Shown in pieces: positions 3,001 to 28,330 of a stretch of 33,725 nucleotides of DNA. Each line of letters starts with the position of its first letter. Positions within the stretch are counted from its first letter, which is position 1. Under the pieces are notes generated by a model, which did no database searches, was not told the origin of the DNA, and worked only from the letters and a program-made list of their open reading frames with translations. The stretch covers positions 1 through 33,725 of the forward strand of contig JAAURL010000004.1 in NCBI GenBank assembly GCA_012032235.1, given 5' to 3'. The stretch is from Akkermansiaceae bacterium (GTDB lineage: Bacteria > Verrucomicrobiota > Verrucomicrobiia > Verrucomicrobiales > Akkermansiaceae). A program made the translations under genes and the position numbers.

Positions 3001-6000
3001 TCCGCCTACTGGGCTAACACCACTCGCTACAGCAACAGATCCAGACCCTGATACAAATGCTCTAAACACAGACAGCAACGGCGTGACGGTATCTGGTCAG
3101 ACTTATGTGCAGTCGCCAGTCGTCACCCTCGCTTCTGGCACAGAGCCAACTGGCGACGATGCACCAACAGCTCCCTATGCGGATAATGACTCTAACAATA
3201 CCGTAGACTTTGGCTTCATTTCCTCACTCATTGTGAATCCAGTCGCTATAGGAGATCGTGTCTGGTGCGATGAAAACGGCAACGGCATCCAAGACTCAGG
3301 CGAGCCAGGTATTCCAAATGTGGTTGTCACTCTGACTCAAGGTGCAAATACCGCGACATCTACAACGGATGCGACAGGTCTTTATCGCTTTGCCAGTGAT
3401 GGCAATGCTCCATTCCTCAGTGCGGGAAGTAGTGTGACTCTAACAATAGATAAAGCAGCAAATGCCGCCGCTCTGAGCGCTTGCCCACTAGTCACCTCGC
3501 CAAACTCCACTGGCCCTGGCGCGAATGATGGTAATGACAGCGATGGCATCGATGGTGCCACGACCGTCACGATCACTACAACGGTTCCAGGACTTGGCAC
3601 TAGCGATCTGACGAATGACTTGGGATTCACGCCGACGGTATCACTCGGTAACTTCGTCTTCATCGACTCTGATAGAGATGGTTTGTCCAGTGGAGAAGTC
3701 GGTCTCGCTGGAGCCATGGTCACCTTGCTCCAAAGCGACGGCGTCACCCCTGCGACGAAGTTTGACGGCACAGCCACACCGATGATCACTACCACCGCAG
3801 ACGGTAAATATCTCTTCACCGATCTCGCTCCAGGCGATTACATCGTCAAAGTAAAACCACCCGTCATCGCACCACAGCCATCGGCGGCTCCGAGCCCAAC
3901 AGGCTATGTGCCAACTACCGCCGCGCCTACAGTCGATCCTGATGCCAATGCCTCTGATATTGATTCTAACAATACAGCGATGGGAACTCTGACTGATCCT
4001 TATCAAGTAGCGTCCGTTGCTGTGACTCTCACCATCGGTGGTGAGCCAGTAGGTGATGAAGATAATGATGTAAATTCTAACAATACAGTTGATTTCGGAT
4101 TCTTTGCTCAAGTTGGCGTGGGTAACCTAGTCTGGATCGATAAAGATGCAGACAGCAAGTTCACCGCTGGTGTTGATGCCCGCGTGCCAAACGTCGTCGT
4201 CCAAGTTTGGCCTGAAGGCGCGAATCCGCTCATCGGCACGGCTCCACACACAGCGACCACAGATGCTAACGGAAATTGGCTCGTCACCAGCGCGCCTCCA
4301 GGACGCTACTTTGCCTTCATCCCACCAGCGATGTTCCAAGCTGGCGCGCCTCTCGAAGGTTACTTTAGCGCTCCTGGTGTCGAGGTCGAGCCGCTGAACT
4401 CTGCCGCAGATGATGATCTGGGAGAGAGCGGTATCGATGATAGCAATCCAGCAGCAAACGGAATCCGTACCCGGAATTTCAACCTCCGCATCGATCGCGA
4501 ACCATTCGTTCAATTCGGTGAAACAGGCGACAATGCGAACTTCGATGCCGCGCCAGTTTATGATGACGATAGCATCGATCTTACCAAAGACTTCGCCTTC
4601 GTTGCACCATTGAGCGTAGGTAACCTCGTCTTCAATGATCTCAATTCAGACGGCCAATATGCTTCTGGAACAGACGCTACATTGGGTGGAGTATTGGTGG
4701 AGCTCTTCAAGTCCACACCAGGCGGACTTGTCCCAGCATTGGATGTTTTCAATAATGCAGTGACATCGGTCACCACACCATCGACGGGTATCTATAACTT
4801 CACCAATCTACCCAAAGGTGACTACGTTGTGCGGTTCACGCCACCGGCTGGTTTCAGAAACACAACCGTGCCAGCTGATCCAGATCCAGATACGAATTCA
4901 TCTAACACCGATAGCAATATCCAGCCAGTCGTAGGGCAAAGCTACTTCCAGACGCCAGTCTTCGCACTTATGGAAGACTCAGAGCCAATCACCGATGGTG
5001 ACACTGACAATGACTCCGATCTCAGCGTTGATGCAGGCTTCGTCCAAGTTATCAGCCTTGGTGATCTAGTCTTCATGGACTCTAACAATAATGGCGTGTT
5101 TGATTCTGCGACTGAAATGGGAATCAACGGTGTTGCCGTGCAACTCCTCTTCGACGCCGACAATAACGGCAGTATCGCAGGGGCGGAAACCACGCCGATC
5201 GCAACAACATCGACTGTCTCAGGCGGATTATACAGCTTCACCGATCTCGTTCCTGGCAGATACCAAGTGCTCATCCCGGCTACGAACTTTGCCACAGGCA
5301 ACGCACTAGCTTCCAAGAGCACCTCATCCACCAATATCGCGACATCCACTGCAGATAACGGTGTGAATAATGATGACAACGGTAACCAACTTGGTGGTGC
5401 AGGCACAGTGACCAGCAGCCCGCTCATCGTTCTAGCTCCGAATACAGAGCCAGGCACTACAGGAACAGGAAATGCTGATAACACCATCGATTTCGGCTTC
5501 TATGCCTCGCTCACACTTGGAGATCTTGTTTTCTGTGATGATAATAACAGCGGCGAGAAAGACCCAGCCGAGCCAGGAATCGGCGGAGTGACTTTACAAC
5601 TCCTCAAAGACGCTGATGGCAATGGCTCCATCGACGGTGCTGAGACCACCCCAGTCGCATCCGTGGTATCATCGACAGTGCCAGCCACTCTCGGCCAATA
5701 CAGCTTCGCTGGACTAACCGATGGCAATTACCAAGTGATTGTCCCTGCGAGCAATTTCATCAGCGGCGGGCCGCTTGCGATTAAGAGTTCGTCTTCCACC
5801 GCATCAAATCCTGATAACGAAACCAATGACGATGACAACGGATCGCAGTCTGGCGGCTCGGGCACAGTCACCACTAGCCCGATCATTGTTCTAGCTGGAG
5901 GCACCGAGCCAAACGGAACAGGAAACAATACCGACAACACCATCGATTTCGGCTTCTTGGCTGGGAAATACAATACTTTCACTTCTTGGCAGGTTGCAAA

Positions 6001-7438
6001 TCCGCTCGGTGGGCAAAATGGCCTAACCCAAAACCCAGACGGTGACGGCTTTAGTAACCTACTTGAATACGCACTCTGCGGTCATCCCTCCACGGGTCTC
6101 AAGGTCTCACCAAGTGGCCAGCCTAATAGCGGGCTCCAGATTGTGCCGAGTGCTAGCACGGCAGATCAGATCGACGCTACTTTCATTCGTCCTAGTGGCA
6201 TCACCGACGTAGCTTATGTTCTGCAATACAGCTCCGACGGGCAAACATGGGTATCTGTCACCGGTATCACTCCTTTGACTACGGCTAATACCAATGGCAC
6301 GGAGACGGTAACTTATCCGAACCTTGAAAGTCTCGGTGCCACGGGCCTGATCAGGCTGCAAATTAGCTCGGGCGTATCCGGCCCACTAGTCACAAATGTC
6401 ACGCAGACTAGTGGTTGGCAGCCGCACACGGTGAAGCCGCTTTGTGAAAGCTATAGTCACCCACTTCTCAATTCGTGTGTCTTTACTGGCACGATCGACG
6501 GAGTGTCTGGGTCGACGCTCGATCTCACGGGATCCGTTGGCACGGGAGATCTAACCACTCTGGACACAACGAAACAATACTACATCGAAGTTACCTCTGG
6601 CGATAACGTGGGCTGCCGCTTTGATATTGCTAGCTTTACCGCGACAAGCGTTGTTCTAGCTGCTGATGCGAGCCTTTACAGCCCAGAGCCGCCATATAAC
6701 ACCACGCTAACTATTCCGGCGACGCTAACAGGTGATAGTATTGTTCTCCGTGAACATCACACATTTGCCAGTCTGTTCCCACCTGACGATATCGGAACTC
6801 CTGCTGTGGATGGCTTTGTAAGCGGAACAACAGTTAATAACTCTGCGCGGCTTCTCTTCTGGGATCGTCTCCAGCAAAAGTTGGTCACCTACTATCTGGA
6901 AACACAGGTCACAGGTGGTCCGATCTGGCGTTCTACCACCAGTGCGACCTCCCTCAATGATCGCGTGTTCCCAGCAGACCAAGGTGTGTTCACTCACAAT
7001 TTGCAAAGTGCAGCAGCAGCCTTCGATATCTTGCAATACGGCGAAGTTCGCACGAACGCAGCACGCGTTCCACTCATTAAGGACTACAACCTCGTTCCAG
7101 CACTTTATCCACTCGATCAAGACTATGCAGCACGCAACCTACTCACTCCAGGTGGTGCTACAGGTAGTTCGGTGCGTCAACAGGCAGATCAGATTCAGTT
7201 CTGGAGAGATGATTCAAACACTAGCCCGACCTTTGTTCCTCATCTCTGCTACGATGCATCGTTCTACTTTGTGACCGCATCACCAGTGAATGACAAGTGG
7301 GTCATGTCGGCAGATCTTTCCCTTGCGGATCAGACGCTACTAGAGGTCTTCAAGCGAGATCGCAGCGCTCTGCATTGCATTCAAACTGCAGATCGGCCAG
7401 CTTATACGATTCCTAATCCGATCAATACTGCTCCATAA
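1..7438 (+). CDS. Giant SdrD_B/CNA_B-like repeat surface or secreted protein (5' truncated by window; two apparent frameshifts near 549 and 2318)
   Basis: ORFs 10..696, 666..2417 and 2363..7438 join into one protein. About 13 modules of ~150 aa share a G(N/D)xVFxDxNNDG start, a GxYxFxxLxPGxYxV core and a DNTxDFGF end. The non-repeat C-terminus starts with NPDGDGFSNLLEYAL. Confidence 0.85.
61..5985 (+). repeat. Degenerate tandem array of ~13 SdrD_B-like coding modules (period ~400-500 bp)
   Basis: Recurring module starts near 73, 505, 967, 1420, 1862, 2290, 2770, 3246, 3645, 4113, 4617, 5059 and 5515. DNA similarity is high between 981-1035, 1434-1485 and 5073-5125 (atggattctaacaacaa...ctgtttgattctggaac). 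Confidence 0.8.
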
Positions 7439-20741: not shown

Positions 20742-22493
20742 TCAATCAAGACTGCGCGAACGTGTGGCAAAAATGCCTGCTGGTCGCCATTGCAGGAAAA
20801 GGATGATGGCTGCGAGAACGAGAATTTTCCCCGTCACAGGATTGCCAAGATATTGTTGTAAGGATTGATCCACGATTCCTATGCCCAGCGCGCTAATCAC
20901 AGTACCAAGTATATTTCCAACACCGCCGACGACGACAGTCATGAATGAATCGACGATATAGTTTTGCCCTAGCGATGGCCCAACGTTGCCGATTTGTGAT
21001 AAAAAGGCACCCGCTAATCCTGCTAAACCGCAGCCGAATGAAAAGGTCATCATATTGACTCGCTCGGTCCGCACGCCCATGCAGGCTGCCATGTTGCGAT
21101 TTTGCATCACTGCACGAATCAACAAACCAAGCGATGTTTTATTTAATACGAGCCAAGTAACAACAATGATAAGCACAGCAAATCCGATTACGAATACGCG
21201 GTTCCAACCAAAGGTAATATCATTGATCGTCCAGTTTCCCGAAAGCCAATTGGGGCTTACCACCTGCACGTTGTTTGATCCAAAGATCAGTCGGAACAAC
21301 TGTTGCATAACTAAAGAAATCCCCCAAGTCGCTAGCAATGATTCCAGTGGACGCTTATATAAAAAGCGAATCACGGATCTTTCTAATAACAAACCAATCA
21401 ATGCCGCTGTAATGAAACTCATGGGCAATGCGACAACAAAATACCAGCCCATGCTACCTGGTGATAAATTCATGCCAGGCAAAGAAATCGATTGGCCAAA
21501 CGGGGAAATCTGCAGACCCGATGAAAATAGATTTTGAATCACATATGTCGTATAGGCACCGATGGCGATGAACTCGCCGTGAGCCATATTGATAATTCCC
21601 ATCAACCCGAACGTGATCGCGAGACCGATCGCCACAACGAGTAATACCGAGCCTAAAGATAAACCGCGAAAGCCTGTACCAATCGCATTGATTGTAGATA
21701 TGTGGCTTTCTATCTTCGCAATCGCATTCTTAGCTGCTGCGATAAGCTCTGAATTTTTCGCTTCGGTAGCCTCTTTGAGGGTCGTTTGAAGACTATCTTT
21801 CGCAGCGAGCGATTTAAGCTCTCCGAGTTGATTGCACGCTGCCATTTTCTCAGCAGATTGAGCGGAGCGAAGCTGAATGATCGCAATCGTTTCGTCTAAA
21901 GCACGCAATGCTTTGGGATCTTTTTCCGTCGTTTTCAGCAGCTGTAAGGCAGGAAGTTTCTCCGCATTTTGTCCGATAGCAGAGTCCTGAATGGCGCGAA
22001 TTCTTTTGATCAAATCAGGATCTGCTAGAGCTGCTAGATCCGTGACTTCTTTCATGGCTTTTCGTAGACCAGAACTTGTGTCCAAGAAATCCACTGCCTT
22101 TGGATTGATGCGGACTTCGCTGCCATCTGCTTTTAGCACTGGGGTGTTATCGAAAAGTTTCAGCGTGGCGAAAGTTCCACTAGCATCTGCTGATCCTGTT
22201 AGGATGACTGGAATTGAAACGTCATTAGCGTCTTTGCTGATAAAAATTTCACCTTTCTTCCATTTTTCAATCCACATCACTACCTCTGGCGATGGTTGAG
22301 ACTTGAGAGAAAGAATGATTTCGCGTTGTTCAGATGTTTTATCTGTGGCTGCAGCAGCAGCGATGATTTCGCGAACAGGCTTGGTATTCGCTGGCTCTGT
22401 ATTTTGTGCATGTGCCAAGGACACAGCTATCCAAAACAGCAGAATACTGTGCGATAGCTGGTTGATAAAACCTAATCTAGTAAAGCGATACAT
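20742..22493 (-). CDS. urtB: Urea ABC transporter permease UrtB with long N-terminal secreted-type extension
   Basis: C-terminal LivH-like permease (GLAITFGLMGIINMAHGEFIAIGAYTTYVIQ). ~280 aa N-terminal extension with signal peptide. Confidence 0.93.
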   Translation of the reverse strand: MYRFTRLGFINQLSHSILLFWIAVSLAHAQNTEPANTKPVREIIAAAAATDKTSEQREIILSLKSQPSPEVVMWIEKWKKGEIFISKDANDVSIPVILTGSADASGTFATLKLFDNTPVLKADGSEVRINPKAVDFLDTSSGLRKAMKEVTDLAALADPDLIKRIRAIQDSAIGQNAEKLPALQLLKTTEKDPKALRALDETIAIIQLRSAQSAEKMAACNQLGELKSLAAKDSLQTTLKEATEAKNSELIAAAKNAIAKIESHISTINAIGTGFRGLSLGSVLLVVAIGLAITFGLMGIINMAHGEFIAIGAYTTYVIQNLFSSGLQISPFGQSISLPGMNLSPGSMGWYFVVALPMSFITAALIGLLLERSVIRFLYKRPLESLLATWGISLVMQQLFRLIFGSNNVQVVSPNWLSGNWTINDITFGWNRVFVIGFAVLIIVVTWLVLNKTSLGLLIRAVMQNRNMAACMGVRTERVNMMTFSFGCGLAGLAGAFLSQIGNVGPSLGQNYIVDSFMTVVVGGVGNILGTVISALGIGIVDQSLQQYLGNPVTGKILVLAAIILFLQWRPAGIFATRSRSLD

Positions 22494-22623: not shown

Positions 22624-23841
22624 CTAGAAGCTTAGCGATTCGTTGACCAGATTGACGAAATCTGCGCGGTCTTTCGCGAGACTATCAGATGTGATTTCGC
22701 GGGCGAGGGCGGAAAGGGTTTGCTTATCCAATACGCCAGCTTGTTCTCCGGCTAGCCATTGGGAATAGGAGCAAATGAGTGCGGCGAACCGTGCATCATC
22801 GGATGGTTCGTTGGCGGATTTTTGGACTAGGGAAAGAGTGGGAGCAGCCTTTCCATTGACTGACCATTGCAGGGAGCCGAGGTCAGTGTTTTGTTTGGCC
22901 AGATCGATCTCGATCGCCATGGTCGTGGAGCTATTGGCTAACAAGGTGCTCGTTTGGCGTTCCGTAAGTTCTCCGGATTTTGATTTAAATCCTAACAATT
23001 TATAATGAGAGACTGCTTGGGAGTCGGGATGAAATGTGAGACTGACTTCACAATCTGCTTTTGAATTTCCCCGCAGGGAAATTAGTAAAAGCTTGGCTGA
23101 GGGTCTCCACGGGCAGGAGATTATTTCGCTGGTGAGCGTAGCAGTGTGAGAGCTCGCGCCGCTGTCGCGATTGTCGGGATGCCAAGTTTCGATTCCGCTG
23201 CGGGCGATGGAGGCGATTCCGTTGAGGCGCAGCGGGAAATGATTTAGAATCTCCTCGCAGCGGATGGTCTCTGGCGAAGGAAGTTTCTTTTCTGTGCGGA
23301 TGGATTTTAAGATTTCCGCGTAATTGGAATCTGCGATTTTTGCGGGTAAGTTCAGCTTTGGATGATCGAGAGAATTTCCCGCGCTGCGTGGCTGGGAACT
23401 GGAACTTTCTGTTTGAATGGCAGGAGCGATGGCAACTTCGCTGGATGATTGCCCGGGCAAGGATTCGTTTTTCGTGACGGTGATAGAGTCGTCAGGGATT
23501 CGCAGCAAAATGAAGGTGCTCAGTGTGAGAATTGCGGCCGCAGATGCTGGGATAAACCAGGTTTTTAGCGTTTCTGAAATTTTGGAGAAAAAAGGCGTCG
23601 TCTCTGGTTGATCGAGCTGCGAAGCGATTTTCAACACTTCTGCCCGCTGTGCAGGCAGAAGTGTCGCGGGGGGAACTTGGAGCTCTTTCGTTAAGAGCTG
23701 ATTGAATTTTTGAAGCTCTTGAATTTCTAATTGGAGTTCTGGATTTTCAGCGACGACGTAGTCCATCGCGGTCATTTCATCCTCACCTAGCTGGCCTAGT
23801 GTGTAGGATGTTAGATGTGGATCGTCGTGACCTGTTTCCAT
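22624..23841 (-). CDS. Membrane anti-sigma-like protein with YfbK-type flanking domains but no recognisable VWA core
   Basis: N-term DDPHLTSYTLGQLGEDEMTAMDYVVAENPELQLEI (anti-sigma-like), one TM (WFIPASAAAILTLSTFILL), NYAEILKSIRTEKKLPSPETIRCEEILNHFPLR and CPWRPSAKLLLISLRG, then EVSLTFHPDSQAVSHYKLLGFKSKSGEL. Confidence 0.6.
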   Translation of the reverse strand: METGHDDPHLTSYTLGQLGEDEMTAMDYVVAENPELQLEIQELQKFNQLLTKELQVPPATLLPAQRAEVLKIASQLDQPETTPFFSKISETLKTWFIPASAAAILTLSTFILLRIPDDSITVTKNESLPGQSSSEVAIAPAIQTESSSSQPRSAGNSLDHPKLNLPAKIADSNYAEILKSIRTEKKLPSPETIRCEEILNHFPLRLNGIASIARSGIETWHPDNRDSGASSHTATLTSEIISCPWRPSAKLLLISLRGNSKADCEVSLTFHPDSQAVSHYKLLGFKSKSGELTERQTSTLLANSSTTMAIEIDLAKQNTDLGSLQWSVNGKAAPTLSLVQKSANEPSDDARFAALICSYSQWLAGEQAGVLDKQTLSALAREITSDSLAKDRADFVNLVNESLSF

Positions 23842-23866: not shown

Positions 23867-24466
23867 CTAGCCGCGTAAGTCAGTGGGAATCATTTCACGG
23901 AGTCGTTTCAAGCCGGCATGAAGGAGAAAGCCGACGTTGCTGATACTGTGGCCAGTGATCTCGTGGATTTCTTGATAGCTAAGGCCTTGTTGAAATTTAA
24001 GAATGATGGCTTCACGCTGGTTAGGGGTGAGGCGATCCAGATAAGCGCTGAGGCGATGAGATTGTTCCTGTTGAGAAAGGTTTTCGTCAGGCTGCAGATC
24101 AGAAGATGGAATGCTCTGTGCCTGGGCATCTTCAAGTGGTTGAATACGTTTATTTTTGCGGAGAATGTCAAAAGCTCGGTTGCGACAAACGGTGAAAAGC
24201 CAAGATTTGAGGTTGTCGCAGACTTTTTCCTCATCCTGATGGCATAGCCGCAAAAAGCTATCTTGGACCACGTCACGGGCCAAATCCAAGTCGTTGAGGA
24301 TGGTGAATGCATAGGCAATGAGCGGTGATTCGTAATCCAACAGTGCTTGTTCGATGAATTCCTCCTTGGTGCGTGCGGGAGTTGAGAATGAGGAAGTGAT
24401 CGACTTCTCACTTTGAACGGAAGTTCCAAGTGAAACCTTAGATGAATTTTCAGAATCTTCCGGCAT
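23867..24466 (-). CDS. ECF-type RNA polymerase sigma factor
   Basis: LARDVVQDSFLRLC, LKSWLFTVCRNRAFDILRK (region 2); LTPNQREAIILKFQQGLSYQEIHEITGHSISNVGFLLHAGLKRLRE (region 4). Confidence 0.92.
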   Translation of the reverse strand: MPEDSENSSKVSLGTSVQSEKSITSSFSTPARTKEEFIEQALLDYESPLIAYAFTILNDLDLARDVVQDSFLRLCHQDEEKVCDNLKSWLFTVCRNRAFDILRKNKRIQPLEDAQAQSIPSSDLQPDENLSQQEQSHRLSAYLDRLTPNQREAIILKFQQGLSYQEIHEITGHSISNVGFLLHAGLKRLREMIPTDLRG

Positions 24467-24467
24467 G

Positions 24468-25106
24468 CTAGCGGACGAAGTAACTGAGGTGCTCTAATTC
24501 CAGCGCGAGATCGACGTTATTGACGGTGACATCAGGATTTACATCTAGCACCACAGGGGAGAAATTGAGCACGCCCAAGATACCAGCGGCGACGAGTCGA
24601 TTGACGACGCTCTGGGCGAACTCGACCGGGACGCAAAGGATGGCGAGTTTGACGTTTTTCTCTGCGATGAATTTTTCCAGATCATTGTCAGGAAAAACGG
24701 GGATTTGTACACCGCGTGCACGTGCTCCTTCTGGATTAGAATCAAACGCTGCGAGAACCTCGAAGCCTTCTTTTTCAAATCCATGATAGCGCAGTAAGGC
24801 GGAGCCGAGATTTCCCGCTCCTACCAAAATAACGGGTTGGAGATGTTCCCTGCGGAGGGTCTCCCGGATGGTGGAGGAAAGTAGTTCCACTGGGTAACCT
24901 AGCCCGCGTGTGCCGAATTGGCCGAAATAGGCGAGGTCTTTGCGAAGTTGCGCGGACTTGACTCCAGCGGCTCTGGCCAGAGTGGAAGAGCTGACGGTAT
25001 CCACGCCATTTGCTTCCAGCTTCTGCAGGCAGCGATGATAAATCGATAGGCGATAGACTGCTTTGCTCGGAATATCGATTTTCTCAATTTTTTCAGGCTG
25101 GTCCAC
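24468..25106 (-). CDS. rex: Redox-sensing transcriptional repressor Rex
   Basis: RLSIYHRCLQKLEANGVDTVSSSTLARAAGVKSAQLRKDLAYFGQFGTRGLGYPVELL and VILVGAGNLGSALLRYHGFEKEGFEVLAAFDSNPE. Confidence 0.95.
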   Translation of the reverse strand: MDQPEKIEKIDIPSKAVYRLSIYHRCLQKLEANGVDTVSSSTLARAAGVKSAQLRKDLAYFGQFGTRGLGYPVELLSSTIRETLRREHLQPVILVGAGNLGSALLRYHGFEKEGFEVLAAFDSNPEGARARGVQIPVFPDNDLEKFIAEKNVKLAILCVPVEFAQSVVNRLVAAGILGVLNFSPVVLDVNPDVTVNNVDLALELEHLSYFVR

Positions 25107-25117
25107 GGGCAGGAAGA

Positions 25118-26356
25118 CTAGAGATTTTCTGGTTTTTGGAGAAGCTCCGAAACGCGGTTTAGCAGAATGCCAGCACCACCACCATCGACGACGCGGTGGT
25201 CAAAGGTGAGCAGTAGATCCGCTTCTGTAGCGGGGAGAAATGTCTCAACTTGCTTGCTCCAGACGGGCTTTTTCACTCCCGCACCGATGCCGAGGATGAG
25301 CGTTTCATTCGGCAGCGGAATCGGCGTGCCGATGGTGAGCCCGAATGTGCCGAAGTTCGTCACAGTGGCAATACCGCCTGCGCAATCTGCCTCCGTGAGG
25401 CGGCGGCGGCGGGCACGATCCACGAGGTCATCGTATTCGGAAACCAGCTCCTTCAGCGATTTTTGATCTACTTTCCTCACCACGGGAACCACTACGCCGT
25501 CTTCGACCTGGACTGCTACGCCCATGTCGAAAGCACGCGGATGCACGACTTTATCACCGATGAGATAGCCAGCCGTTGTCGGATTTTCTGCAAGGGCGAT
25601 CGCAAAAGTACGCAGCAAATAGAGGGTGAGTCCGGGTTTGGGCGATTGGGCGCGGCGATGATCCAAAACGCGATCTAACAGAGTCGGTAATCCAACCGTC
25701 GCCAGTGGTCGCGTCCAACTGCGGCGCATGGCATCTGCCACGGCCAACCGCATGGGAGACGCGCTAGAGCTGGGCCATGTATCGAGGTAATCGAGAAAGC
25801 GCTCCAAGTCTTCTACCGTCACCCGACCGCCTGCGCCAGTCCCAGCGATGGCGGAAATGTCAGCCTCGCGGATGCCGAGATCATCCATTCTGGCGCGCAT
25901 TCTGGGGGAAATATAATGGGCGCCTAGAACGCCAGTCGGCACGGGCAATCCTTTCACGCTCGGAACGACTGCTGGCGCTTCTTCGTAAGCATCATCATCG
26001 AGAGCGAAGTGTAAATTCGCCTCAGTTTGAGTAGGGCTGTTAGATGAATGCGATGTTGCACGCTTGGCTTCGATCGCTTCTAACGATTCCACTCCGGTAC
26101 GGGCGATTTCATCATTCGTCACTTCTAGTAAACCTAACAGGGTTCCCACTGAGTAGGAAACACCTTCTTGAGCACGTATTTCAGAAACGATGCCGTCACA
26201 TAAAGTGGTCACGCCCATCACGGCTTTATTCGTCTCCACCTCGATCATTTCTTGGTCCGTTTTTACCGCGTCGCCCACGGCTACGCCTAGGCGGATGATG
26301 GTCGCCTCGGCAATGGATTCACCAAGCTGCGGCATGAGAATGGGGACGGTTGGCAT
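25118..26356 (-). CDS. Dihydrolipoamide acyltransferase (E2) of a 2-oxoacid/pyruvate/acetoin dehydrogenase complex
   Basis: Lipoyl domain ...MIEVETNKAVMGV, peripheral-subunit binding region YISPRMRARMDDLGIREADISAIAGTGAGGRVTVEDLERF, catalytic TFDHRVVDGGGAG. Confidence 0.92.
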   Translation of the reverse strand: MPTVPILMPQLGESIAEATIIRLGVAVGDAVKTDQEMIEVETNKAVMGVTTLCDGIVSEIRAQEGVSYSVGTLLGLLEVTNDEIARTGVESLEAIEAKRATSHSSNSPTQTEANLHFALDDDAYEEAPAVVPSVKGLPVPTGVLGAHYISPRMRARMDDLGIREADISAIAGTGAGGRVTVEDLERFLDYLDTWPSSSASPMRLAVADAMRRSWTRPLATVGLPTLLDRVLDHRRAQSPKPGLTLYLLRTFAIALAENPTTAGYLIGDKVVHPRAFDMGVAVQVEDGVVVPVVRKVDQKSLKELVSEYDDLVDRARRRRLTEADCAGGIATVTNFGTFGLTIGTPIPLPNETLILGIGAGVKKPVWSKQVETFLPATEADLLLTFDHRVVDGGGAGILLNRVSELLQKPENL

Positions 26357-26374: not shown

Positions 26375-27400
26375 TTAGAAGGAGAGCAGCTTTCGGAGTG
26401 CTTCGCAAATCGACTCTGGTGTCGGGCGGTGTGCAGCCCAGAGTTTTGGGTGATAGGGGACTGGAGTATCGCGGGCATTGAGGCGCTGCGGCGGCGCGTC
26501 TAACAGATGGAATCCTTCCTCGGTTACTCGGGAAACGACTTCTGCCGTCACTCCTCCCCATGGGAAGGCCTCTCCCACGGCTAGCAAGCGTCCAGTCCGC
26601 GCCACAGAAGCGAGAATCGTATCGAGATCTAACGGTTTTACGGATCGCAAATCCACCACTTCGATTTCCCAGCCATCCTGGGCTAGTCGGTCTGCCGCAC
26701 GAACGGCTTCATGAACCATCGCACTGTAGGCGACGACGGTGGCGTGCTTGCCGGGACGGGTGATTCTCGCTTGGCCGATGGGTAAATGATCGCCGTTGAT
26801 CGACTTTGCCTTTAACCAGCGATAGAGAAATTTATGCTCACAGTAAATGACTGGATCATCCAAAGCGACTCCGTCTAACAGCATGTGATACGCGTCAGAA
26901 ACAGTCGCAGGTGTTAGCACGACCAGGCCGGGATACTGCGCGTAAATTCCCTCCATGCTCTGGCTATGAAATGGCCCGGAGCCGGGGGTGCCGCCAGATG
27001 GGAGCCGCACCGTGATCGGGATCGGCATGCCAGTCCGGTAAAAGTGCGTGGCGGCTTGATTAACGATTTGGTTAAACGCCAACGAGGAGAAATCTGCGAA
27101 TTGCATTTCCACAATCGGACGCATCCCTTCGATGGCGGCTCCCACTGCCATGCCGATCATCGCGTCTTCGGAAATCGGGGCATCAAATACTCTGTTAGGA
27201 AATTGCTCGGCTAGTCCTTTCGTCGCTTTAAATGCTCCGCCAAAAGTAGCGATGTCTTGGCCGTATAGAAATACGCGCTCGTCGTCGCGCAGGAGTTTTT
27301 CCTGAGCTTCGCGGATGGCATCGATGTAGGTTACGCTCACTGGGGAATGGTCTAGGAAATGGGCCTTAATAGAGGAAATTTTGTGGAGAGTGCTGTCCAA
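26375..27400 (-). CDS. 2-oxoacid dehydrogenase E1 component, beta subunit
   Basis: SVTYIDAIREAQEKLLRDDERVFLYGQDIATFGGAFKATKGLAEQFPNRVFDAPISEDAMIGMAVGAAIEGMRPIVEMQFADF. True start probably downstream, near SVTYIDAI. Confidence 0.92.
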   Translation of the reverse strand: MDSTLHKISSIKAHFLDHSPVSVTYIDAIREAQEKLLRDDERVFLYGQDIATFGGAFKATKGLAEQFPNRVFDAPISEDAMIGMAVGAAIEGMRPIVEMQFADFSSLAFNQIVNQAATHFYRTGMPIPITVRLPSGGTPGSGPFHSQSMEGIYAQYPGLVVLTPATVSDAYHMLLDGVALDDPVIYCEHKFLYRWLKAKSINGDHLPIGQARITRPGKHATVVAYSAMVHEAVRAADRLAQDGWEIEVVDLRSVKPLDLDTILASVARTGRLLAVGEAFPWGGVTAEVVSRVTEEGFHLLDAPPQRLNARDTPVPYHPKLWAAHRPTPESICEALRKLLSF

Positions 27401-28330
27401 TTTTCCTGGTAGGGATCAGGCAGGTTTTCTTGTTGCGCTTGGGCGACGGCGCGTTGGACCTCATCGGCGATTTCATCCTGCCAAGCCGTGATTTTCTCTG
27501 GCGTCGCGCAGCCAGTCTCTACTAGCTGGCGGATCGCGATTTCAATGCAATCGCGCCCATAGTGATCGCTGCGGGTGTTTTCCGGCACGTAGCTGCCGTC
27601 ATCGTGTTCGCCGTGGCCAGATAGCCGCAGCAAATGGGCGACGACCATTTGTGGGCCGCCTCCACTGCGCGCCCGCCGCACCGCTTCACCGATGACCGAG
27701 GCACAAGCAAGAAGATCCGTGCCGTCTACGGAAAATCCGCCAATGCCGTAACCACGTGCTCTCTCTACCAAATCATTGCAGGCAAATTGGCGATGATTCG
27801 GCGTGGAATAGGCAAATTGATTATTCGCCACCACCACCACTAGCGGGAGCTTTTCCACGGCTGCCATATTGAGCCCTTCGTGAAATGCTCCTGTGGATGT
27901 CGCTCCATCGCCGATGCAGGTTGCGCCGACGCGTCCTACCAGCGTGCCTTGCAGGCGCTTCGCGAAAAGCCATTCCTGCCACGACTGGCACTTGTGCACC
28001 GAGATGTGAAATCATCGCTGGCATTCCCATTTCAGGTCGGCCACGGTGGATATTTCCATCGCGCCCGCGCATGGGACCTTCGACTGAGCCTAGGTAAGTC
28101 CGTGTGCAGTCGATCAGCGGCTCACCGAAAGCGGTGCGTCCTGCTTGGTCGCGGATCAGGGGGGCAAAGAAATCGGTGCCTTGAATCAAGGCCGTGCCGA
28201 GCGTGGCGCTGACCGCCTCCTGACCACGGCCTAAATACACGCCACCGACGATTTTCCCCGCTTTATAAAGGCTGGAAAGCTTGTTTTCCAAGATTCGCGC
28301 TCGCAGCATTGAAAGAAAAACGGATCGCAA
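27352..28330 (-). CDS. 2-oxoacid dehydrogenase E1 component, alpha subunit (apparent frameshift in A4 run 27965-27968)
   Basis: ORFs 28330..27821 and 27999..27352 join; ThDP motif GDGATSTGAFHEGLNMAAVEKLPLVVVVANNQFAYSTP. Confidence 0.9.

Follow-up and report, generated by a model that had tools for sequence, protein, structure and literature searches.

Gene and Domain Organization

The window, a stretch of 33,725 nucleotides, carries a gene for a 405-aa protein in which an anti-sigma-like N-terminus and one transmembrane (TM) helix precede two flanks of YfbK-type proteins joined without a VWA domain. This layout, proposed in the original prediction, was confirmed by Pfam, NCBIfam and hhalign (Table 1). 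The claimed reading frame is indeed uninterrupted, is 405 aa long and contains all the quoted motifs, but its strand had to be corrected to minus (23841 to 22624); the plus strand across the interval is full of stops.

Table 1. Features of the VWA-less gene and of the genes upstream of it in the window.
Feature	Position	Strand	Residues	Evidence and remarks
VWA-less anti-sigma/YfbK-flank protein	22624..23841	(-)		405 aa plus stop
N-terminal anti-sigma-like helical domain, predicted cytoplasmic	23611..23823	(-)	about 7-77	NF052375; helices in model
Single hydrophobic TM segment	23503..23559	(-)	about 95-113	sequence; model helix 85-114
Low-complexity linker, predicted disordered	23377..23499	(-)	about 115-155	pLDDT <50 at 116-153
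N-terminal YfbK flank (vWF_A N-domain)	23068..23364	(-)	160-258	PF12450 E 1.7e-4; hhalign E 3.3e-16
Junction at the VWA position of relatives; 5-residue turn NSKAD	23053..23067	(-)	259-263	model and alignment
C-terminal YfbK flank (YfbK_C)	22627..23052	(-)	264-405	PF12034 E 2.4e-4; hhalign E 6.8e-11
ECF sigma factor, regions 2 and 4	23867..24466	(-)		PF04542 2e-9; PF08281 5.6e-11
Rex-type NADH-responsive repressor	24468..25106	(-)		PF06971, PF02629
2-oxoacid dehydrogenase E2 (pyruvate dehydrogenase-type)	25118..26356	(-)		PF00198, PF00364; conserved order
Dehydrogenase E1 beta subunit	26375..27400	(-)		PF02779, PF02780
Dehydrogenase E1 alpha subunit, broken frame in assembly	27352..28330	(-)		PF00676, profile 123-299 only, ORF 27352-27999

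The N-terminus matched the NCBIfam anti-sigma model NF052375 over residues 10-112 (E 2.1e-6) with 27.9 bits against a model cut-off of 100 bits, and the same domain of VWA-containing relatives with an hhalign E of 4.3e-25; its clade consensus is DPRLTAYxLGEL. No zinc-finger was matched in the protein by Pfam. Both the sequence and the structural model gave a single hydrophobic helix, for which an N-in, C-out topology is predicted.

The Pfam matches to PF12450 (vWF_A, residues 169-205, 22 bits) and PF12034 (YfbK_C, residues 340-401, 21.8 bits) were both slightly below the gathering score of 25 bits. They are nevertheless real, if weak, because in profile-profile comparisons (hhalign; alignment of the 405-aa protein and 29 homologues) the N flank matched the canonical flanks at E 3.3e-16 and the C flank at E 6.8e-11 over 138 columns, and both flanks were co-linear through the junction with the joined flanks of VWA-containing relatives (E 1.3e-21). 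Profile matches to both flanks, on which the prediction depended, were thus obtained. The N flank ends in the strand AKLLLISLRG, and in the window type its motif DVDTASY has drifted. The C flank comprises the remaining part of the sandwich and the C-terminal helices; EPSDDARFAAL is conserved, and near-invariant residues include P346, S347, D349, F352, W362, L363, R381 and E382. Of the features of the YfbK family, the protein therefore has PF12450 and PF12034 and lacks the VWA with the MIDAS motif DxSxS: no VWA was matched in it by Pfam, NCBIfam or our own HMM, and the VWA profile reached a probability of 0.1% against the window-type alignment (hhalign).

Predicted Structure

The AlphaFold2 model, built from a 30-sequence alignment (L085 was left out of the structure alignment), had an overall pLDDT of 80. 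The predicted periplasmic part was modelled as a beta-sandwich followed by C-terminal helices, mostly with a pLDDT of about 90-97 and with lower values in loops near residues 211-230 and 281-300. Residues 259-263 form the turn of a beta-hairpin joining strands 249-258 and 264-272, in a block with a pLDDT of about 92-95. When VWA-containing relatives are aligned with this VWA-less model, their VWA appears to be inserted at the tip of that hairpin of the sandwich.

A VWA fold was sought in the predicted structure, and none appeared either in the model or in the fold search. Against the PDB, the best fold matches, with an E of about 1.5e-3 and a TM score by target near 0.55, were the Ig-like sandwiches of adaptin ears; these matches are weak and uninformative on the function of the periplasmic domain. 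A PDB sequence search with the window protein returned no notable match. Viral fold matches to this domain were judged not meaningful, and no canonical (VWA-containing) relative was found on viral contigs.

Distribution of the VWA-Less Form

Homologues were present in 49 of 61 sampled genomes of the genus, some of them on single contigs, and in 58 of 97 sampled genomes of the family, mostly as weak matches. A genome scan with the single sequence P0001 gave no match; the alignment query used afterwards gave 44 named loci from Akkermansiaceae or Verrucomicrobia, including one in Luteolibacter pohnpeiensis KCTC 22041. None of the 24 loci newly fetched from genus genomes showed a VWA match, and the same short junction was recognized by pattern in 21 of them (e.g., CPWKPSATLLLISLRGNALTDCDVKLSFHTNP); the fetched loci of the window clade likewise contained no VWA. 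VWA-less homologues adjoining ECF genes, a search for which the original prediction had suggested, were found in both the genus and the family. According to our analysis, the VWA-less form is the standard one in the genus and family, and not a one-off; the loss behind it is old and common to dozens of relatives.

The omega of the anti-sigma gene was 0.12-0.25 in most moderately close pairs with measurable divergence, which indicates purifying selection. The exceptions were two pairs with values of 0.35-0.40 and one near-identical pair with very few changes (0.45).

Transfer of the VWA to another gene was considered; in the sequence fetched around window-type genes, no VWA was present. Other VWA proteins are encoded elsewhere in the window genome. 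In genus g3 of the same family, which has small genomes, all 18 sampled genomes lacked PF12450, and those g3 genomes that were searched with the window protein gave no match.

VWA-Containing Relatives and Repeated Loss

Throughout the class and the phylum there are many PF12450 proteins, about 640-1100 aa long, in which the same N-terminus (e.g., MKLQPDDPKLTAYALGELDASEA) and a TM are followed by the N flank, a DVSGSM-bearing VWA and YfbK_C; an ECF gene lies just upstream of these full-length genes. ECF-linked Verrucomicrobiota proteins of this kind (e.g., L034, L118, and L120) thus resemble the window protein in the N-terminal anti-sigma motif, the TM, both flanks and the upstream ECF gene, but carry between the flanks a VWA with the MIDAS motif DxSGSM that the window protein does not have. 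E. coli YfbK, with the order PF12450–VWA–PF12034, also shares both flank domains with the window protein and differs from it in possessing the VWA; it is not known to carry an anti-sigma domain as a fusion. Since VWA-containing versions across the phylum are already fused to the anti-sigma domain and paired with an ECF gene, these two traits are older than the loss of the VWA. What is new is that loss, the derived trait, and not the fusion to an anti-sigma domain. The idea that losing the VWA had turned the flanks into a sigma-linked domain therefore holds in part: there is good support for a YfbK-type protein having lost its VWA, whereas the linkage to the anti-sigma domain predates this loss.

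In a tree of 88 sigma factors, which used no anti-sigma columns, is unrooted and has a bootstrap that is not fully settled, the window-type proteins formed one clade of 55 rows with support of 100/99. The state of the VWA changed eight times on this tree, and at least six of the changes are forced by well-supported branches. Two losses lie within family f13, both on complete genomes (L110 and L111); in L110 about 11 residues separate the flanks (HRLVRIGLKGREAGGTLVTIAKDVKIQVEFNP). Further losses were found at L112, L113, and L114. In losses on the complete genomes G202 and G168 the flanks are almost intact (PF12034 E 3e-63 and 6e-53). L115 (1818-3896, (-)) retains an insert of VWA length in which the MIDAS has decayed, with DGVEVRGM replacing DVSGSM, and has no VWA profile match; it was scored as VWA-minus on the tree despite this insert.

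The window genome (G000) contains a second VWA-less ECF/anti-sigma/YfbK system, on contig C226 at 24141-25727 (L106 4142-5728), whose 529-aa protein belongs to a type distinct from the window pair. All 19 fetched family orthologues of L106, several of them from the same genus, had a VWA match, and D.SGSM was found in 18 of them, the remaining one being a contig fragment. Only the window genome lacks the VWA among the fetched loci of this type, with the excision near residue 381 in one MAG. Judging from these sequences, the VWA has been lost in several separate events, two of them in the window genome, although the second case there rests on one MAG.

Two other accounts of the missing domain were weighed. 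That its absence is an artefact, an assembly error or an in-frame deletion in a MAG, could be suspected from the source genome, which is a MAG of 272 contigs (85% complete and 5.4% contaminated). Such a local deletion was looked for in relatives, and the identical junction appeared in other assemblies made independently, among them single-contig genomes and that of Luteolibacter pohnpeiensis KCTC 22041; this refutes an artefact in the window gene, an explanation to which we assign practically no probability. It is also very improbable that an ancestrally VWA-less sandwich gained the VWA several times. The sandwich does look self-sufficient in the model and the sigma tree is unrooted, but VWA-containing versions are spread over the phylum and include E. 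coli YfbK outside it, VWA-less rows are nested within VWA clades in f13, L115 retains its MIDAS-dead insert of VWA length, and several insertions at precisely the same position would be unlikely. Even with an unrooted tree, loss is a more plausible account than several gains at the same site.

The ECF Partner and Its Operon

The ECF gene lies 25 bp upstream of the anti-sigma/YfbK gene in the same direction, and an ECF gene is found directly upstream in nearly all homologues. In the genus-level clade of the window, the genes are arranged as E1 alpha–E1 beta–E2–Rex–ECF–anti-sigma, and the gap between Rex and ECF is 1 bp in the window, as it is in many relatives. The Rex–ECF order was also observed in genera g7 and g11, and several other genera have no Rex nearby. 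Where over 1.1 kb of sequence lay upstream of a VWA-containing gene, neither Rex nor E2 was found. A search for Rex operators gave 24 matches against 17.4 expected, and 6 of 100 shuffles gave as many, so this number is not clearly above chance.

The remainder of the E1 alpha gene lies in another frame, which reflects either a broken gene or an assembly error. At L104, a second and more distant ECF gene (5654-6385, (+)), followed by a 463-aa ORF without YfbK flanks, is located just downstream of the window-type pair. On the other side of the anti-sigma gene, the window encodes UrtB (20742-22493, (-)) with an N-terminal extension of roughly 270 aa ahead of the permease domain; other urea-transporter genes follow downstream of UrtB on the same strand.

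Proposed Function

Our best inference from the sequences is that the two joined flanks form an input domain in the periplasm that serves the neighbouring ECF factor. The protein resembles class I membrane anti-sigma factors of ECF in its operon with an ECF gene, N-terminal helical domain, one TM and C-terminal outer domain; it differs in that the outer domain is a YfbK sandwich, and its sigma binding is a prediction. We consider it probable that the protein serves as a membrane anti-sigma factor for the ECF factor encoded next to it, with the remaining putative periplasmic sandwich as the input domain. The N-terminal helical domain would hold the ECF factor at the membrane, and the TM helix would lead to a periplasmic sandwich and C-terminal helices, both formed by the two YfbK flanks. 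The VWA would have been cut out at the hairpin, leaving a 5-residue turn and an intact sandwich core, so that the sandwich alone would now receive the signal; the sigma factor would then be released, probably by regulated proteolysis. In the window clade, the pair lies at the end of the conserved pyruvate dehydrogenase–Rex operon, so that its supply is probably tied to the redox and central-carbon state.

The role assigned to the outer domain has two competitors. The flank domain may be a structural remnant or scaffold, with the anti-sigma factor controlled otherwise, for example by a partner protein or by general membrane stress. We regard this as rather unlikely: the sole metal/ligand-binding domain has been lost and drift is seen in the DVDTASY flank motif of the window type, but most close pairs are under purifying selection, many residues of the C flank are near-invariant, and the flank domain is conserved throughout a family. 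Alternatively, the outer domain could be independent of sigma control and serve, for instance, as a scaffold of the envelope or respiratory chain that shares an operon with pyruvate dehydrogenase and ECF. The conserved pyruvate dehydrogenase–Rex neighbourhood would agree with this, and so would one locus in the complete single-contig genome G082 (L010 631-2184, (+)). There, a 518-aa ORF has a degenerate remnant of sigma region 2 (HMM E 4.5e-13) fused to the TM and the YfbK flanks, and the flanks are conserved despite the loss of sigma region 4 and the anti-sigma domain. This fusion without an anti-sigma domain implies that, in this genome at least, the outer part may serve a different purpose. 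At nearly all other loci, however, the ECF gene lies directly upstream, even without pyruvate dehydrogenase and Rex, and we therefore hold a sigma-independent role to be improbable.

Relation to Known Systems and Significance

Among the closest systems in the literature are the YfbK-like vWA “force transducers” tethered to the inner membrane and linked to TolQR-like motors (PMC12204202, 2025), a study in which E. coli YfbK is termed a free periplasmic protein. Like the window protein, they are TM-tethered, YfbK-like and periplasmic and also occur in Verrucomicrobia, but they retain the vWA and have a TolQR-like context; the word “sigma” is absent from the main text of that paper. In the accessible literature, we found no description of ECF-linked YfbK anti-sigma factors or of VWA-less forms. 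The VWA-containing ECF-linked group may already be known in the published ECF classification; apparently, the ECF-linked YfbK sensor family has so far been undescribed.

In conclusion, the matched VWA-plus and VWA-minus anti-sigma factors are a natural series for probing the role of the VWA in YfbK-type proteins; the series takes in nested losses from complete genomes as well as one MIDAS-dead intermediate. These proteins single out the flanks as the core that is conserved in an ECF-linked sensor family, one branch of which shares an operon with pyruvate dehydrogenase and a redox sensor. More tentatively, the YfbK flanks could form one continuous sandwich and be the true input unit of a large family of Verrucomicrobiota ECF anti-sigma factors, in which the VWA would be a detachable ligand-binding insert that has repeatedly been discarded, and the stripped form of this genus may have been wired into the pyruvate dehydrogenase–Rex operon, coupling redox to an envelope-sensing sigma factor.
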